Assembly (NCBI GenBank): GCA_029240055.1
Contig: JARBTT010000009.1
Coordinates: 1-34,849 of the forward strand
Source of the DNA: Anaerosinus sp.
GTDB lineage: Bacteria > Bacillota > Negativicutes > JARBTT01
Direction of reading: 5' to 3'
Length of the DNA stretch: 34,849 bases
Of the stretch, positions 813-18,383 are shown piece by piece (position 1 is the first letter of the stretch; the number at the start of each line of letters is the position of its first letter). Both the position numbers and the translations under genes were made by a program. A model generated the notes under the pieces. The model ran no database searches and was not told where the DNA came from. It saw only the letters and a list, made by a program, of their open reading frames with translations.

Positions 813-1307
813 ATGAGTGTTTATACTAAGACTGGTGACAAGGGAAGTACTGGACTATTGACGGGTCAACGTGTAGATAAAGATTGTTTACGTGTAGATG
901 CGTATGGTACGGTTGATGAAATCAATGCTACTTTAGGTGTAGCTCGCTCATTTTGTGAAAAGGCTTTGGTAAAAGAGGCAATTTATAAGTTGCAGAAAAT
1001 TAATATGCTACTTATGGCAGAATTGGCAAGTGATTCAGATGCTAAGTATATTACTATAGACCACATTGCTTCTCTAGAGGAGATCATTGATAAGGTGGAT
1101 TCAAAGTTGCCCCCTTTAAAGAGCTTTTTAATATCAGGAGATAATAAAGGTGGAGCTACACTAGATTTAGCAAGAACGGTAATTCGTAGGGCTGAACGTA
1201 AAGTTTGGCGTTTGTCAAAAAGTGAACATGTGAATAATGAAGTACTTGTAGTATTAAATCGTTTATCTGATTTATGTTTTGTATTGATGCGCTTAGAAGA
1301 ACAATAG
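813..1307 (+). CDS. PduO-type corrinoid adenosyltransferase
   Basis: ATP:cob(I)alamin adenosyltransferase of the PduO/ACA family. It attaches the 5'-deoxyadenosyl group of ATP to reduced corrinoid to make adenosylcobalamin. The 164-aa length fits the family. The N-terminal ATP-binding signature is clear (YTKTGDKGSTGLLTG, residues 4-18), as is VDAYGTVDEINA soon after. The C-terminal helix motif ARTVIRRAERKVW supplies the conserved Arg residues of the active site. A GGAGATG ribosome-binding site precedes the ATG. No cobalamin-biosynthesis or B12-dependent enzyme genes are visible nearby, so it probably serves a pathway encoded elsewhere. No riboswitch is seen upstream; the gap to ndk is only 29 bp. 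Confidence 0.93.
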   Translation: MSVYTKTGDKGSTGLLTGQRVDKDCLRVDAYGTVDEINATLGVARSFCEKALVKEAIYKLQKINMLLMAELASDSDAKYITIDHIASLEEIIDKVDSKLPPLKSFLISGDNKGGATLDLARTVIRRAERKVWRLSKSEHVNNEVLVVLNRLSDLCFVLMRLEEQ

Positions 1308-1381
1308 TAGTAGCCGATGCTTTATTATTTACATAGTCTATAGTAAATTTGCTGTGTAGGTGTAATAAGGGGGCGATTAGG

Positions 1382-1459
1382 GTGAAAGCTTTAAAGATCT
1401 ATGTTTTATCTGTGCCAAAATCATTACGTAAATTTATGCGTACATTTTACAAAGCATAA
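1382..1459 (+). CDS. spoVM: Tiny SpoVM-like amphipathic peptide (candidate)
   Basis: A 25-codon ORF starting with GTG, preceded by a strong ribosome-binding site (AAGGGGG at 1367-1373, 8 nt away) and followed 6 bp later by an intrinsic terminator, so it looks like a genuine monocistronic gene. The peptide aligns with Bacillus SpoVM (26 aa) as K-[IF]-Y-[VT]-[LI]-x-[VL]-P-K-x-L, followed by a basic/hydrophobic helix ending near a Lys. Pro12 would match SpoVM Pro9, the residue needed for recognising forespore membrane curvature. In Bacillus, SpoVM anchors SpoIVA and the coat to the forespore. The main differences are three extra N-terminal residues and a more basic, Gly-poor helix. No sigma-E promoter is convincing in the 74 bp upstream. 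The rest of the 1308-1644 gap holds a terminator and AT-rich leader only. Confidence 0.6.
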   Translation: MKALKIYVLSVPKSLRKFMRTFYKA

Positions 1460-1465
1460 TATTAG

Positions 1466-1498
1466 AAATAACCGCTATAAAGGCGGTTATTTTTTTTT
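1466..1498 (+). terminator. Intrinsic terminator after the spoVM-like ORF
   Basis: A 10-bp perfect stem (AAATAACCGC at 1466-1475 with GCGGTTATTT at 1483-1492), a 7-nt loop, and a run of nine T starting inside the 3' arm. It ends any transcript covering the spoVM-like ORF and separates it from the EF-G-like gene. Confidence 0.9.
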
Positions 1499-1644: not shown

Positions 1645-3714
1645 ATGGTGAAAGAGTACAGCGGTCGTAATTTAAGAAACATAGCAATTGTAGGACATGG
1701 AAAGGCTGGAAAAACGTCATTAACAGAATCGCTTTTGTTTAATGCAGGACTTGTAAATAGGTTGGGAAAGGTTGACGATGGAACGTCATCTTCAGATTAT
1801 GAGGCGGAAGAAATAAAAAGAAAGCTTAGTATTAGTAGTGCACTTGTTTCGTTTGATTGGCAAGGTTATAAACTAAATTTTATCGACACACCTGGCTATC
1901 CTGATTTTGTGGCAGAAGTCAAATATGCTTTGCAAGCTGTAGATAGTGTTTTGGTTGTGGTTTCAGCGGTGGCAGGAATTGAAGTTGAGACCGAAAAAGT
2001 TTGGCGATATTCCGAGAATTTAAGTTTGCCACGGGCGATTTATGTAAATAAAATGGATCGTGAATATGCTGATTTTTATTCTGCTGTAGAACAGATGCGT
2101 GTGAAATTTGGCAATGGCGTAGTACCCATTCAGATTCCAATAGGAAAAGAAAATTCTTTTCATGGAGTTGTAGATCTTTTAACCATGCATACAAAAATAT
2201 TGGCAAGTGATAATAAGTTTCTTGAGGGTGAAATACCAGAATATTTAAAATCGGAAGTAGAAGATGCTCGTCAAAAATTAATTGAAGTTGTAGCAGAATA
2301 TAATAATGAATTATTAGACAAATACTTGGAAGGTAAAGAAATTACTGAAATAGAAGTTGCTGCTGCTTTGATTGATGGAATTAATTCAGCAAAGATTTTT
2401 CCTATATTATGTGGCTCAGCTATTAAGAATATTGGATCAAAAAAATTGATGAACGCTATTGTAGAATATATGCCAACTCCATATTTTAAAACTTCTATCG
2501 GGATGGAGCCAGTGACAGGAAATATTATAGAAAGAAATACGGAAGATTCTTTTTCAGGTATAGTTTTTAAGACCACCGCAGATCCGTTTGTTGGTCGTTT
2601 GAGTTATATTAAAATTTTATCAGGTACCATGAAAGGCGAGAATTTAGTTTACAATGCAAGTAAAGAAAAATTGGAGCGCATCAATAGTGTTTTTACGCTG
2701 TATGGAAAACAACAAAGTAGTATGTCGGTTGCGCATGCTGGTGATATTGTTGTTGTAAATAAGTTACAAGAAACTTGCACAGGTGATACCCTTTGTAGTA
2801 AAGATGCATTAATTGTATATGAAACTATAAAATATCCTAAGCCGATGTTAATGATGGCTTTAAAGGCGAAAAATAAAGGCGATGAAGATAAAATCGGCAA
2901 TGCACTTAGTAAGATTATTGATGGGGATCAAACAATTAAAATTGATAAAGATATGGAAACAAAAGAGTTGTTAATCAATGGTATTGGCGAGTTACATTTG
3001 GAGATTACGGCTGAAAAGTTAAAGAGAAAATTTGGTGTAGAGATTTTTTTGAGTAAACCGGCTGTGCCGTACCGGGAAACGATAAAAGAAAAAGTAAAAA
3101 TTGAAGGGAAGCACAAAAAACAAAGTGGCGGACATGGCCAATTTGGTCATGTATGGTTAGAGCTAGAACCTTTATCGTCAGGTAGCGGTGTTGAGTTTAC
3201 AGAATCTATTTTTGGTGGTTCTGTTCCGAGGCAGTATATACCTGCAGTTGAAAAAGGTACTCGTGAGACGTTAAGTGAAGGAGTATTGGCTGGATATCCT
3301 GTTGTTGATATTAAAGTCAATTTATATGATGGTTCTTATCATAATGTTGATTCTTCAGAAATGGCATTTAAGGTCGCAAGTGCACTTGCAATTCGTAAAG
3401 GAGTTATGCAGGCAGCGCCAGTGCTGTTAGAACCAATTTATAATGTGAAGATAAGTGTTCCAGAATATTATATGGGTGATGTTATTGGCGGATTGAACTC
3501 AAAACGGGGGCATATTTTAGGCATGGACACTGGCGAACGGGGGATGGGGATTGTTACTGCACAAGTTCCAATGGCTGAGTTATTTAAATATGCAACTGAT
3601 TTACGTTCGATTTCACAAGGGCGCGGAAGTTTTGATATGGTTTTTTCGCATTATGAAGAATTGCCAGTACGCTTAGCGACAGAAATTATTACTGCAAAAA
3701 AGAATAAGGATTAG
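1645..3714 (+). CDS. Elongation factor G-like translational GTPase
   Basis: A 689-aa EF-G-type protein with all GTPase motifs: P-loop GHGKAGKTS (17-25), DTPGYPDF (81-88), NKMD (135-138) and a SAIKN-type G5 near residue 260. EF-G domains II-V follow, including a domain IV/V region with GGHGQFGHVWLELEP and the C-terminal RGSFDM motif. The P-loop is not the canonical AHIDAGKTT of ribosomal EF-G. The switch I region reads RKLSI instead of RGITI. Both features mark the EF-G-like paralog group that includes mycobacterial FusA2 and Thermus EF-G-2, whose cellular role is unsettled. It is not next to rpsL-rpsG-tuf, which also argues for a paralog. The ATG at 1645 has GGAGGG about 6 nt upstream. A weak promoter-like pair (TTGAGT 1570, TAATAA 1593) is seen. 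Confidence 0.92.
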   Translation: MVKEYSGRNLRNIAIVGHGKAGKTSLTESLLFNAGLVNRLGKVDDGTSSSDYEAEEIKRKLSISSALVSFDWQGYKLNFIDTPGYPDFVAEVKYALQAVDSVLVVVSAVAGIEVETEKVWRYSENLSLPRAIYVNKMDREYADFYSAVEQMRVKFGNGVVPIQIPIGKENSFHGVVDLLTMHTKILASDNKFLEGEIPEYLKSEVEDARQKLIEVVAEYNNELLDKYLEGKEITEIEVAAALIDGINSAKIFPILCGSAIKNIGSKKLMNAIVEYMPTPYFKTSIGMEPVTGNIIERNTEDSFSGIVFKTTADPFVGRLSYIKILSGTMKGENLVYNASKEKLERINSVFTLYGKQQSSMSVAHAGDIVVVNKLQETCTGDTLCSKDALIVYETIKYPKPMLMMALKAKNKGDEDKIGNALSKIIDGDQTIKIDKDMETKELLINGIGELHLEITAEKLKRKFGVEIFLSKPAVPYRETIKEKVKIEGKHKKQSGGHGQFGHVWLELEPLSSGSGVEFTESIFGGSVPRQYIPAVEKGTRETLSEGVLAGYPVVDIKVNLYDGSYHNVDSSEMAFKVASALAIRKGVMQAAPVLLEPIYNVKISVPEYYMGDVIGGLNSKRGHILGMDTGERGMGIVTAQVPMAELFKYATDLRSISQGRGSFDMVFSHYEELPVRLATEIITAKKNKD

Positions 3715-3783: not shown

Positions 3784-3859
3784 TGGCTGAGGCGGCTGGA
3801 TTCGAACCAACGAATGCGGGAGTCAGAGTCCCGTGCCTTACCAGCTTGGCGACGCCCCA
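3784..3859 (-). tRNA. tRNA-Gln (anticodon CUG)
   Basis: Read on the minus strand, the 76 nt fold into a full cloverleaf. The acceptor stem is TGGGGCG with CGCCTCA (one G-U), and U1-A72 is typical of tRNA-Gln. The D arm contains CTGGTAAGG. The anticodon stem CGGGA/TCCCG encloses loop CTCTGAC, giving anticodon CUG, which reads CAG. The T arm contains GGTTCGAAT. The discriminator is G73 and CCA is encoded. It has its own promoter just upstream and lies downstream of the DUF4127 gene in the same direction. The more common tRNA-Gln(UUG) is not in the window. Confidence 0.95.
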
Positions 3860-7370: not shown

Positions 7371-7412
7371 TACAAAAAGATAAGAGAAGGTACCTTCTCT
7401 TATCTTTTTGTA
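7371..7412. terminator. 42-bp perfect palindrome, terminator of ylbJ
   Basis: Two 21-bp arms are exact reverse complements with no loop, centred on a GGTACC hexamer. Each arm ends in a T-run on the outgoing strand (TCTTTTTGTA), so the hairpin can terminate in both directions. It overlaps the last codons and the stop (7400-7402) of ylbJ on the minus strand, and lies 30 bp beyond the terminator of the opposing operon. It most likely ends ylbJ mRNA and backs up the plus-strand terminator. Confidence 0.8.
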
Positions 7413-8647
7413 TAAAGGTAGATTTTTTTTGTTAGATGTATAATCAGCGAGATACTTAGTAAAATAAATAAAACTAAGATCAGTTGATTGAAGGTTTGCG
7501 CTAATCTGTTAAAACAAAAAAAGATTGAACTTGTATCATTTGTCATGACGGGTAAGGTGAATAAGTGCATTACGCTTTGCCAAGGGCCTAAAAAGAGTAG
7601 CGTTAATATAGCAGCTAATAATGAATGTAATAGGCGAGCTAACATATATGGCATCATATTTATTCCAGCTTCAATTACGATGCTAGCCACTTGCCCGTGG
7701 ACACAAAGACCACTCCAAGCAATAATGGCGCTAGCAATGGCTACTTTGTCATTTAATGGGGCGATCGCTTGGCTGGCAGCCAAAGTTCCTAAGTCTATTT
7801 CAAATAAGCCGACACTTAATGATTGTGCAAGATTTGTACTGATTCCTATTACATCAAGTAAGAGTGAAAAAAATGAGTCAAGATAGGTTGTAACCCCAAC
7901 TGTTGATAAAATCCTTAAAAACACAGAGAATACTATAATAAATCCACCGATTAATAGAATTGTATTCATCGATGATTTTATTGAATCTCCTAGCAATGCG
8001 CTAAAAGAACGATTATCTTTCTTGCGGGATTTATATAGTTCTTGAAATGCGCGAATGAATATATTTTTAGATTCTATAATTTCGTTATCAAGAGAATACT
8101 GATCACGATTTCTTCCGTAAAAACGATAGATCAGTCCAACCAATAGGCTTGCTAAGTAATGAGCGATTGCTAGTGTTGCGCCAAGTTCGGGCAGCGCAAA
8201 CATGCCAACTGCAACAGCCCCGAACATGAATAATGGATCGGCGGTATTTGTAAATGCCAATAATCTTTCAGCTTCAACCTTGCTACAAAGATTGTCTTTT
8301 CGGAATTTACATGTAATTACTGCATCCATTGGGTATCCAGAAGCAAGCCCCATTGAAAGGGCAAAAGCTCCAATACCAGGTACATTGAAGATAGGACGCA
8401 TAAGTGGCTCTAATAAAATGCCTAAGGCATGAACGACGCCAATACCCATAAGAATTTCTGATAATATAAAAAAAGGTAATAATGATGGGAAAACTACATT
8501 CCACCATAGATTTAGCCCTATAATTGCAGAGTCAAAAGTTTCTTTTGGATATTGGATCATCGCTATTGTAAGAAATAAAGTAAAAGATGCAATAGAATAG
8601 GTAATTATTTTAGAATGATATTGTTTTTCTTTTGGTAATGTAGACAA
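7400..8647 (-). CDS. ylbJ: Sporulation integral membrane protein YlbJ
   Basis: A 415-aa multi-pass membrane protein of the nucleoside-recognition (Gate) domain family. In Bacillus, YlbJ is made in the mother cell under sigma-E and is needed for normal heat-resistant spores; the transported molecule is unknown. Recognisable stretches are WNVVFPSLLPFFILSEILMG, SGYPMDAVITCKFRK, LLAFTNTADPLFMFG and the later GLFEIDLGT. Hydrophobic segments occur throughout, including one near the C-terminus. The start is TTG at 8647, supported by GGAGGA 7 nt upstream. It is the ylbJ position of the ylb cluster but is reversed relative to rsmD-coaD and to the patatin gene. No convincing sigma-E promoter was found. 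Its stop lies inside a perfect palindrome. Confidence 0.92.
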   Translation of the reverse strand: MSTLPKEKQYHSKIITYSIASFTLFLTIAMIQYPKETFDSAIIGLNLWWNVVFPSLLPFFILSEILMGIGVVHALGILLEPLMRPIFNVPGIGAFALSMGLASGYPMDAVITCKFRKDNLCSKVEAERLLAFTNTADPLFMFGAVAVGMFALPELGATLAIAHYLASLLVGLIYRFYGRNRDQYSLDNEIIESKNIFIRAFQELYKSRKKDNRSFSALLGDSIKSSMNTILLIGGFIIVFSVFLRILSTVGVTTYLDSFFSLLLDVIGISTNLAQSLSVGLFEIDLGTLAASQAIAPLNDKVAIASAIIAWSGLCVHGQVASIVIEAGINMMPYMLARLLHSLLAAILTLLFLGPWQSVMHLFTLPVMTNDTSSIFFCFNRLAQTFNQLILVLFILLSISLIIHLTKKIYLYTKR

Positions 8648-14428: not shown

Positions 14429-15373
14429 TTGTTTAATAGTGATATTTGTAAATTATTAAATATTAAATATCCAATCATGCAAGGTGGTATGGCTTGGATA
14501 GGTACTTCTGAATTGGCTGCTGCTGTATCTAATGCTGGTGGTTTGGGTATTATCGGCGCTGGACATATGCCGCCAGACGCTTTAAGAAATGAAATTAGGA
14601 AAGCAAAATCATTTACTAATAAACCTTTTGGCGTTAATATTATGTTAATGTCGCCATTTGTAAAAGAGGTTATGGCAGTTGTTATTGATGAGAAAGTACC
14701 AGTTGTTACTACTGGTGCTGGCAATCCTGGAGAATATATCCCAGCTTTAAAAGAAATTGGAAGTAAAGTAATACCAGTTGTTGCTTCTGTTGCATTAGCG
14801 AAACGTCTAGCTCGTACGGGGGTGGACGCGGTTATCGCTGAAGGAATGGAAAGTGGTGGACATATTGGAGAAATTACAACAATGGCACTTGTGCCACAGA
14901 TTGTTGATGCAGTAGATATTCCAGTTATTGCTGCTGGTGGAATTGCTGATTCACGCGGAATGGTAGCAGCGTTCGCATTAGGTGCACAAGGCGTACAAAT
15001 CGGATCCCGTTTTGTTGCTTCTGAAGAATGTATTGCCCATGAAAATTATAAAAAAGCTGTTTTAAAAGCCAAAGATCGTTCCACTGTGATTACAGGCGTT
15101 TCGACAGGTCACCCCGTGAGAGTAATTGCCAATAAATTGACTCGTGAGTACCTTGAATTAGAAAAGAATGGTGCGTCTGTCGAAGAACTAGAAAAAATCG
15201 GTGCGGGTAAATTACATCTAGCAACACATAAAGGTGATGTTGATAACGGTTCAGTTATGATTGGACAAATTTCTGGCATGCTAGCTGAGCTTAAGAGTGT
15301 TGATGCTATCGTACAAGATTTGGTAAATGGGATACCTAATGTTATGAATGATATAAAGAATATTTGTAAATAA
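14429..15373 (+). CDS. fabK: Enoyl-ACP reductase II FabK (FMN-dependent)
   Basis: 314 aa, started by TTG at 14429 with AAGGAGGA 8 nt upstream. FabK reduces trans-2-enoyl-ACP with NAD(P)H and FMN in the last elongation step, replacing FabI. The (beta/alpha)8 flavoprotein signatures are present: MQGGMAWIGTSELAAAVS near the N-terminus, SGGHIGE with the catalytic-type His145, and the phosphate-binding PVIAAGGIADSRG and GAQGVQIGSRF. Placement between fabH and fabD matches fab clusters of streptococci and clostridia. A second, related gene lies downstream at 17439. This one is the better FabK candidate because of its position and lack of a Cys cluster. Confidence 0.93.
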   Translation: MFNSDICKLLNIKYPIMQGGMAWIGTSELAAAVSNAGGLGIIGAGHMPPDALRNEIRKAKSFTNKPFGVNIMLMSPFVKEVMAVVIDEKVPVVTTGAGNPGEYIPALKEIGSKVIPVVASVALAKRLARTGVDAVIAEGMESGGHIGEITTMALVPQIVDAVDIPVIAAGGIADSRGMVAAFALGAQGVQIGSRFVASEECIAHENYKKAVLKAKDRSTVITGVSTGHPVRVIANKLTREYLELEKNGASVEELEKIGAGKLHLATHKGDVDNGSVMIGQISGMLAELKSVDAIVQDLVNGIPNVMNDIKNICK

Positions 15374-17404: not shown

Positions 17405-17438
17405 TAAAGGTAATACGTATTGATTGGAGGAGTTATTC

Positions 17439-18383
17439 TTGAAACTTCCAGAACTAAAAATTGGTACAAAGGTTGCAACAGTACCTATTATTCAAGGTGG
17501 TATGGCAATACGTTTATCAACAGCTCGCTTAGCTGCTGCTGTTGCAGAATCTGGTGGTATTGGACTTATTGCTGCATCTGGTATGACTATGGATGAGTTG
17601 CGTTATGAGATAAGATTGGCAAGATCGCTGACAACAGGCGTTATAGGAATAAATGTTATGGTTGCAGCAAGAAAATTTAGTGAAATAGTTAAGACTGCTA
17701 TCAGTGAAGGTATTGATTTAGTAGTAGCTGGTGCTGGTTTTTCACGTGATATGTTTGGGTTAGGTAAGGAGTCTAATACTCCAATTGTACCTATTGTCTC
17801 TTCTGTAAAATTAGCAAAAATATCACAAGCGCTTGGAGCATCGGCGGTTATTGTCGAAGGAAAAGAAGCTGGTGGTCATTTAGGTACGGATCAATCGATA
17901 AAATCGTTAATTCCTGGAATCAGAGAAGCAGTAAAGATACCGGTTATTGCTGCTGGTGGTGTTATGTCAGGCAGTGATATTGTTGAACTTATAAAACTTG
18001 GCGCAGATGGTGTACAAATGGGTACTAGATTTGCAGCTAGTGAAGAATCTAATGCAGCTCCAGCTTTGAAAGAATTTTATCTAAAAGCAAAAGCTGAAGA
18101 TGTTGTAGTAATAAATAGTCCTGTGGGGCTTCCGGGGCGTGCAGTACGCAACCCTTTTGCTGAGAAAATAATAGAAGGTAATTCGCCAGTTGATTCATGT
18201 GACGCGTGCTTAAAACATTGTAAACAAAATTTTTGTATCATAAAAGCATTAATTCGTGCACAACAGGGTGATGTTGAAAATGGTTTGGTGTTTACAGGCG
18301 AATACATTCATAAAATAAAAGAAATATTACCTGTTAAAGAAATATTTGCTAGACTTCAAGCAGAAGTTGAAGCAATAAATTAG
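17439..18383 (+). CDS. FabK/nitronate-monooxygenase-like flavoprotein with Cys cluster
   Basis: 314 aa from TTG at 17439, chosen because GGAGGAG lies 5 nt upstream; a TTG at 17424 would put that site inside the gene. It shares the FMN barrel of Fab[27 protein letters not shown] with His147, [12 protein letters not shown] and GVQMGTRFA. It differs in carrying Cys254, Cys257, Cys261 and Cys266 ([14 protein letters not shown]), just before the shared [12 protein letters not shown]. Similar Cys-bearing proteins are usually annotated nitronate monooxygenase or flavin oxidoreductase (YrpB-type). Its place between acpP and fabF suggests a lipid role: a second enoyl reductase or a proofreading or isomerase step. 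The Cys set could bind metal or an Fe-S cluster, which is inference. Confidence 0.85.

Follow-up and report, generated by a model that had tools for sequence, protein, structure and literature searches.

The question raised by this locus was whether a frame of only 25 codons, equipped with its own expression signals, is a real gene, and whether its product is a version of SpoVM. SpoVM, a very small peptide, serves as the anchor of the spore coat on the forespore membrane. The window, meaning the whole stretch of DNA that was analysed (34,849 nt), corresponds to a single 34.8-kb contig from a draft genome of 2.86 Mb (84% complete). The following features belong to the frame itself.

1367..1375, + strand: ribosome-binding site AAGGGGGCG, assigned from the sequence and from a G-rich or purine-rich site in 27/27 loci
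1382..1459, + strand: spoVM-like gene, GTG start and TAA stop, encoding the 25-aa peptide MKALKIYVLSVPKSLRKFMRTFYKA
1464..1498, + strand: intrinsic terminator with a 13-bp stem, a 5-nt loop and a T run

The frame and its GTG start were found exactly where the initial annotation had placed them. The strong, well-spaced ribosome-binding site and the terminator just past the stop that it had described were likewise recovered: 8 nt separate the G5 run of the site from the GTG, and the terminator stem (1464-1494), which precedes the T run, starts 5 nt past the stop codon and has a folding energy of -15.2 kcal/mol (z -4.8). Starts further upstream, such as the TTG at 1349, were ruled out because the conserved ribosome-binding site would then fall inside the frame.

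The frame is short, and family look-ups with the single 25-aa peptide gave no match, as would be expected of a chance intergenic ORF; a PF08183 search of the same genome returned only a chance match, within a 1101-aa frame. When 60 relatives were searched with the peptide, roughly half of them proved to have it. Named relatives that carry the gene include Pelosinus fermentans JBW45, P. propionicus and a 'Negativicutes bacterium', and the class is accordingly taken to be the Negativicutes. The relatives' loci contained the same short frame at the same start position, opened by ATG, GTG or TTG, and a hairpin followed the stop codon. When the 26 distinct sequences (24-27 aa) were aligned, M1, Y7 and P12 were invariant and the consensus was MKxLKIYVMSVPKPLRKxMRxFxK. 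Nucleotide changes were mostly synonymous per site, with a pooled pN/pS of 0.22 over 12 pairs, and the amino acids are under purifying selection along the whole peptide. Sequence, length, ribosome-binding site, promoter element and place were conserved over approximately 20 family-level groups, and this refutes a chance ORF, a reading that retains almost no probability.

The place of the gene is defined by two neighbours.

813..1307, + strand: PduO-type cob(I)yrinic acid a,c-diamide adenosyltransferase (TIGR00636), upstream marker by synteny
1645..3714, + strand: EF-G-like GTPase (NF009381), downstream marker by synteny

In nearly all of the 23 larger loci the order was gamma-carbonic-anhydrase-like gene, ndk, PduO, ORF and EF-G-like gene. 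The initial annotation had proposed a search for short ORFs between the last two markers in related genomes, and had named an unconserved frame in close relatives as evidence against a gene; the search found the frame at the same place, with its start and ribosome-binding site conserved. Other features of the window were also recorded; a DUF4127-like gene, with no NCBIfam match, adjoins the tRNA gene listed first.

3784-3859, - strand: tRNA-Gln (ctg), downstream of the EF-G-like gene
7400-8647, - strand: sporulation membrane protein YlbJ (TIGR02871), the second sporulation gene of the window
14429-15373 and 17424-18383: two FabK-like enoyl-reductase paralogues (recognised by eye) in one fatty-acid synthesis cluster

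A promoter element was sought upstream of the gene. At the -10 position, sigma-E and sigma-K, which act in the mother cell, have the pattern CATANNNTA; by itself it fits both factors alike.

1332..1340, + strand: -10-like element CATAGTCTA, of the sigma-E/sigma-K type by motif only, 50 nt before the start codon

The pattern was present at -34 to -90 from the start in 21/27 loci, compared with 1.0 expected in shuffles, and most of the remaining loci carried near-variants (CATACAATG, CATAGAAT and similar). The extended form AC-N16-18-CATANNNTA occurred in 16 of the 27 loci, compared with 0.18 expected; the -35 'AC' is absent upstream of CATAGTCTA in this genome and present in most relatives. In C. 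difficile, spoVM is under sigma-E control (PMC5607322).

The distribution of the gene was examined by running a Negativicutes profile on 380 genomes of the class, and matches were accepted at E<=1.3e-7, after which there was a gap to 6.7e-5. Two weak matches were taken as chance, namely a 29-aa frame with no SpoVM-like context (in G315) and an intergenic match without start or ribosome-binding site (in G272). The spoVM-like frame was detected in 52/380 genomes, and SpoIVA (TIGR02836), the universal spore-coat ATPase, also in 52/380. Both were present in 51 genomes, each was alone in 1, and 327 had neither (Fisher p ~4e-61, a statistic that ignores shared ancestry). The sole genome with the gene in which SpoIVA was undetected (G036, 93% complete, gene at C120:27908) reflects either an assembly gap or a recent loss; the genome with SpoIVA and without the spoVM-like gene (G316) is 58% complete. 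In at least 10 genomes the spoVM-like gene and the SpoIVA gene were 7-20 kb apart. Six relatives lacking SpoIVA retained PduO, the hairpin and the EF-G-like gene while the ORF was missing, as would be expected if a sporulation gene had disappeared together with sporulation itself.

These loci also bear on a regulatory explanation, in which the frame is a leader peptide or attenuator for the EF-G-like gene and translation of its 25 codons decides termination at the hairpin. The adjacency of ORF, terminator and EF-G-like gene in most loci is what such a role would lead one to expect. However, the survival of the hairpin and the EF-G-like gene after loss of the ORF argues against it, as do the selection on amino acids over the whole peptide and the tracking of SpoIVA by the ORF. 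Furthermore, at the locus of the closest relative (L063, genome G003) the spoVM-like gene is kept and the DUF4127-rsmD-coaD synteny continues, but the EF-G-like gene was not found there, and at three other loci it lies 1.6-1.7 kb from the ORF. A leader-peptide role is thus very improbable.

Whether this sporulation-linked gene is homologous to spoVM was assessed with curated and newly built models. The curated models PF08183, NF033436 and NF011327 (the latter two from NCBIfam) matched 0/26 Negativicutes members at E<=10; the same models recognised 19/19 of the canonical SpoVM members collected. A SpoVM model of our own was built from those 19 members, and it gave the window peptide 20.6 bits, a score reached by 0/4000 composition shuffles (maximum 12.8). 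Among the 512 candidate starts of 20-40 aa ORFs in the window, only the 1382-1459 frame scored with this model, the next-best ORF having 4.6 bits. The family mean was 9.75, compared with -1.4 (sd 0.7) for composition shuffles, and the reciprocal search was likewise far above shuffles. Profile-profile alignment (hhalign) gave P 1.2e-6 and a probability of 91, paired residues 4-24 with SpoVM 1-21, and placed Pro12 on SpoVM Pro9. The SpoVM pattern noticed earlier in the N-terminal half, including Pro-Lys, was borne out by this alignment, in which P12-K13 falls on P9-K10. The comparison with SpoVM profiles that had been proposed had a divided outcome, favourable with the model built from 19 members and negative with the curated ones. 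At the profile level the peptide is homologous to SpoVM.

An alternative is that a sporulation-specific amphipathic membrane peptide of separate origin converged on the SpoVM pattern of a Pro kink and a basic amphipathic helix. Such a peptide would work in the mother cell, possibly in the coat or cortex, and need not bind SpoIVA. The failure of every curated SpoVM model, the different gene position and the differences in several key residues are compatible with convergence, and homology over approximately 21 columns is not provable beyond doubt. Against convergence, when the hydrophobic/basic pattern and the proline were kept in the shuffles, the score was reached by only 3/4000, and the family mean of 9.75 compared with 1.1 for these shuffles. 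Sequences at the classic rpmB site also link the two groups, as described below, and we consider convergence improbable.

At the recognised SpoVM loci that were fetched, rpmB lies alongside and convergent, which is the customary place of spoVM but no requirement for it. In the 11 Negativicutes genomes checked, the spoVM-like gene was not beside rpmB, the two genes being separated by approximately 54-308 kb or lying on different contigs, and a SpoVM-like ORF sought at rpmB itself in Negativicutes spore-formers was not found; the lack of a second SpoVM at that locus is a further point against convergence. The Negativicutes profile, when run over the phylum, picked up MRFYVFRVPRLLRGIIRLFIRNR and its kin, at E 1.7e-5 and weaker, from a family of the phylum outside the Negativicutes (group f90, loci L125-L128 in genomes G479, G741, G701 and G441). 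These bridging peptides scored 23-32 bits on the SpoVM model and their gene is convergent with rpmB. They look like intermediates, the core changing from PKFLGG to PRLLRG and then to PKPLRK. The L125-L128 peptides (MRFYVF[RK]VPR.LR) were absent at E<=0.01 when this genome sample was searched with PF08183, and SpoVM is probably under-detected well beyond the Negativicutes. A further candidate SpoVM, LRFYIITVPKMFRGIVRGLFGFLTKA, was seen at L131:1501-1554 (genome G507), with 26.7 bits on the canonical model; rpmB was not found in its 3-kb locus.

The residues of the peptide were compared with those of known importance. In B. subtilis SpoVM, recognition of positive curvature depends on Pro9, which kinks the peptide; SpoIVA binding requires Ile6, and Lys2 and Ile15 are important for making the cortex (PMC5607322). 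The proline that aligns with Pro9 (Pro12 or Pro11) was invariant in 26 sequences. As read from the alignments, the equivalent of Lys2 is Lys5 (K/R in nearly all members), that of Ile6 is L9 (mostly M/V/L in the family) and that of Ile15 is F18 (nearly always hydrophobic), so that the changes at these three positions would be conservative. The helix after Pro12 was strongly amphipathic, with a hydrophobic moment of 0.60 (p<0.001; family median shuffle p 0.002), and the mean net charge was +6.2 in the family versus +5.4 in canonical SpoVM. Lys7, nearly invariant in canonical SpoVM, is replaced by Ser/Thr in the Negativicutes peptides, and Gly13-Gly14 by Arg-Lys. The earlier description of the peptide as more basic, poor in Gly and longer at its N-terminus was accurate (charge +7 for the window peptide, no Gly-Gly, 2-3 extra residues). 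Its suggestion of a divergent lineage version of SpoVM also held, given the conserved frame at the same locus and a SpoVM-model score that beats both composition and amphipathic-pattern shuffles.

Taken as a whole, the best explanation, and one that we hold to be highly probable, is a real mother-cell sporulation gene whose product is a diverged SpoVM homologue; on the simplest reading it would act by the SpoVM mechanism. Sigma-E and/or sigma-K would transcribe the gene in the mother cell as a single unit. Lying in the convex membrane that faces the forespore, the basic amphipathic peptide of 25 aa, with its kink at Pro12, would recognise the curvature of this membrane. It would recruit SpoIVA, the coat ATPase, and hold it in place, and the basement layer of the coat would thereby form on the forespore. 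The sensing of curvature, the binding of SpoIVA and the timing are proposed here by analogy with B. subtilis and C. difficile. Counting against the explanation are the failure of the curated models, the replacement of Lys7 and Gly13-Gly14, the position away from rpmB and the missing -35 'AC' in this genome. A more far-reaching version is that diderm spore-formers anchor the coat with a peptide class of their own, which has been relocated, is more basic, carries two prolines and is adapted to the membrane facing the forespore in a cell with two membranes; it would work with SipL and SpoIVA in a manner seen neither in B. subtilis nor in C. difficile. This version is rather unlikely.

The curated model cut-offs concern recognition and not biology, and the peptide is outside the family as now defined. 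As judged from its sequence it is a SpoVM-type peptide and a diverged homologue, which is not counted as a member of PF08183/NF033436 because the curated models fail to match and the gene position differs. The 25-residue gene is most likely the long-diverged SpoVM version of the Negativicutes, which appears to form a class-wide clade with no model in current annotation; our verdict is a relocated, divergent SpoVM clade for which there was no earlier model. Galperin et al. 2012 reported SpoVM in all bacilli and only some clostridia, at a time when no complete genome of a spore-forming member of the Negativicutes was available, and raised the question of remote SpoVM versions in genomes where searches come up empty (PMC3533761). 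A distant version has now been found in essentially all SpoIVA-carrying Negativicutes, where it is invisible to current annotation models. Anchoring of the coat thus seems to be a conserved step that extends to diderm spore-formers. No published description of a Negativicutes SpoVM clade was found in a literature search that did not cover the 2022 follow-up sporulation-gene survey. An improved SpoVM profile can be built. The peptide also offers a 25-residue test case for how far curvature recognition tolerates change (Gly-Gly absent, Lys7 lost, a second Pro), and for whether SpoVM matters where SipL is present.

SipL (PF12673) is a clostridial coat protein that interacts with SpoIVA. It belongs to the pathway in which the peptide would act, with the coat basement layer and SpoIVA as partner in common, but is an unrelated, larger domain protein and not a membrane-curvature peptide. 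SipL-family domains are encoded in this genome, and C. difficile needs SpoVM little; SpoVM may therefore not be strictly essential here, as in C. difficile. The bridging f90 peptides share with the Negativicutes peptide the P-[RK]-x-L-R core and a single gene with a hairpin, and have the MRFYVF[RK]VP N-terminus of canonical SpoVM. They differ from it in lying at rpmB, in lacking the N-terminal extension, so that their Pro is residue 9, and in retaining one Gly as well as the basic character of position 7. With SpoVM itself the Negativicutes peptide has in common a length of approximately 25 residues, the K-[FI]-Y and Pro-Lys core, and a basic amphipathic helix that comes after a Pro kink; in both cases a single gene is ended by a terminator, a promoter element that by its motif is of the mother-cell type is present, co-occurrence with SpoIVA is strict and selection is purifying. 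Apart from its altered residues, it differs from SpoVM in its stronger helix amphipathicity, in a second Pro that often follows two residues past the first and in escaping detection by current SpoVM models, and its gene lies between PduO and the EF-G-like gene, whereas that of SpoVM is convergent with rpmB.
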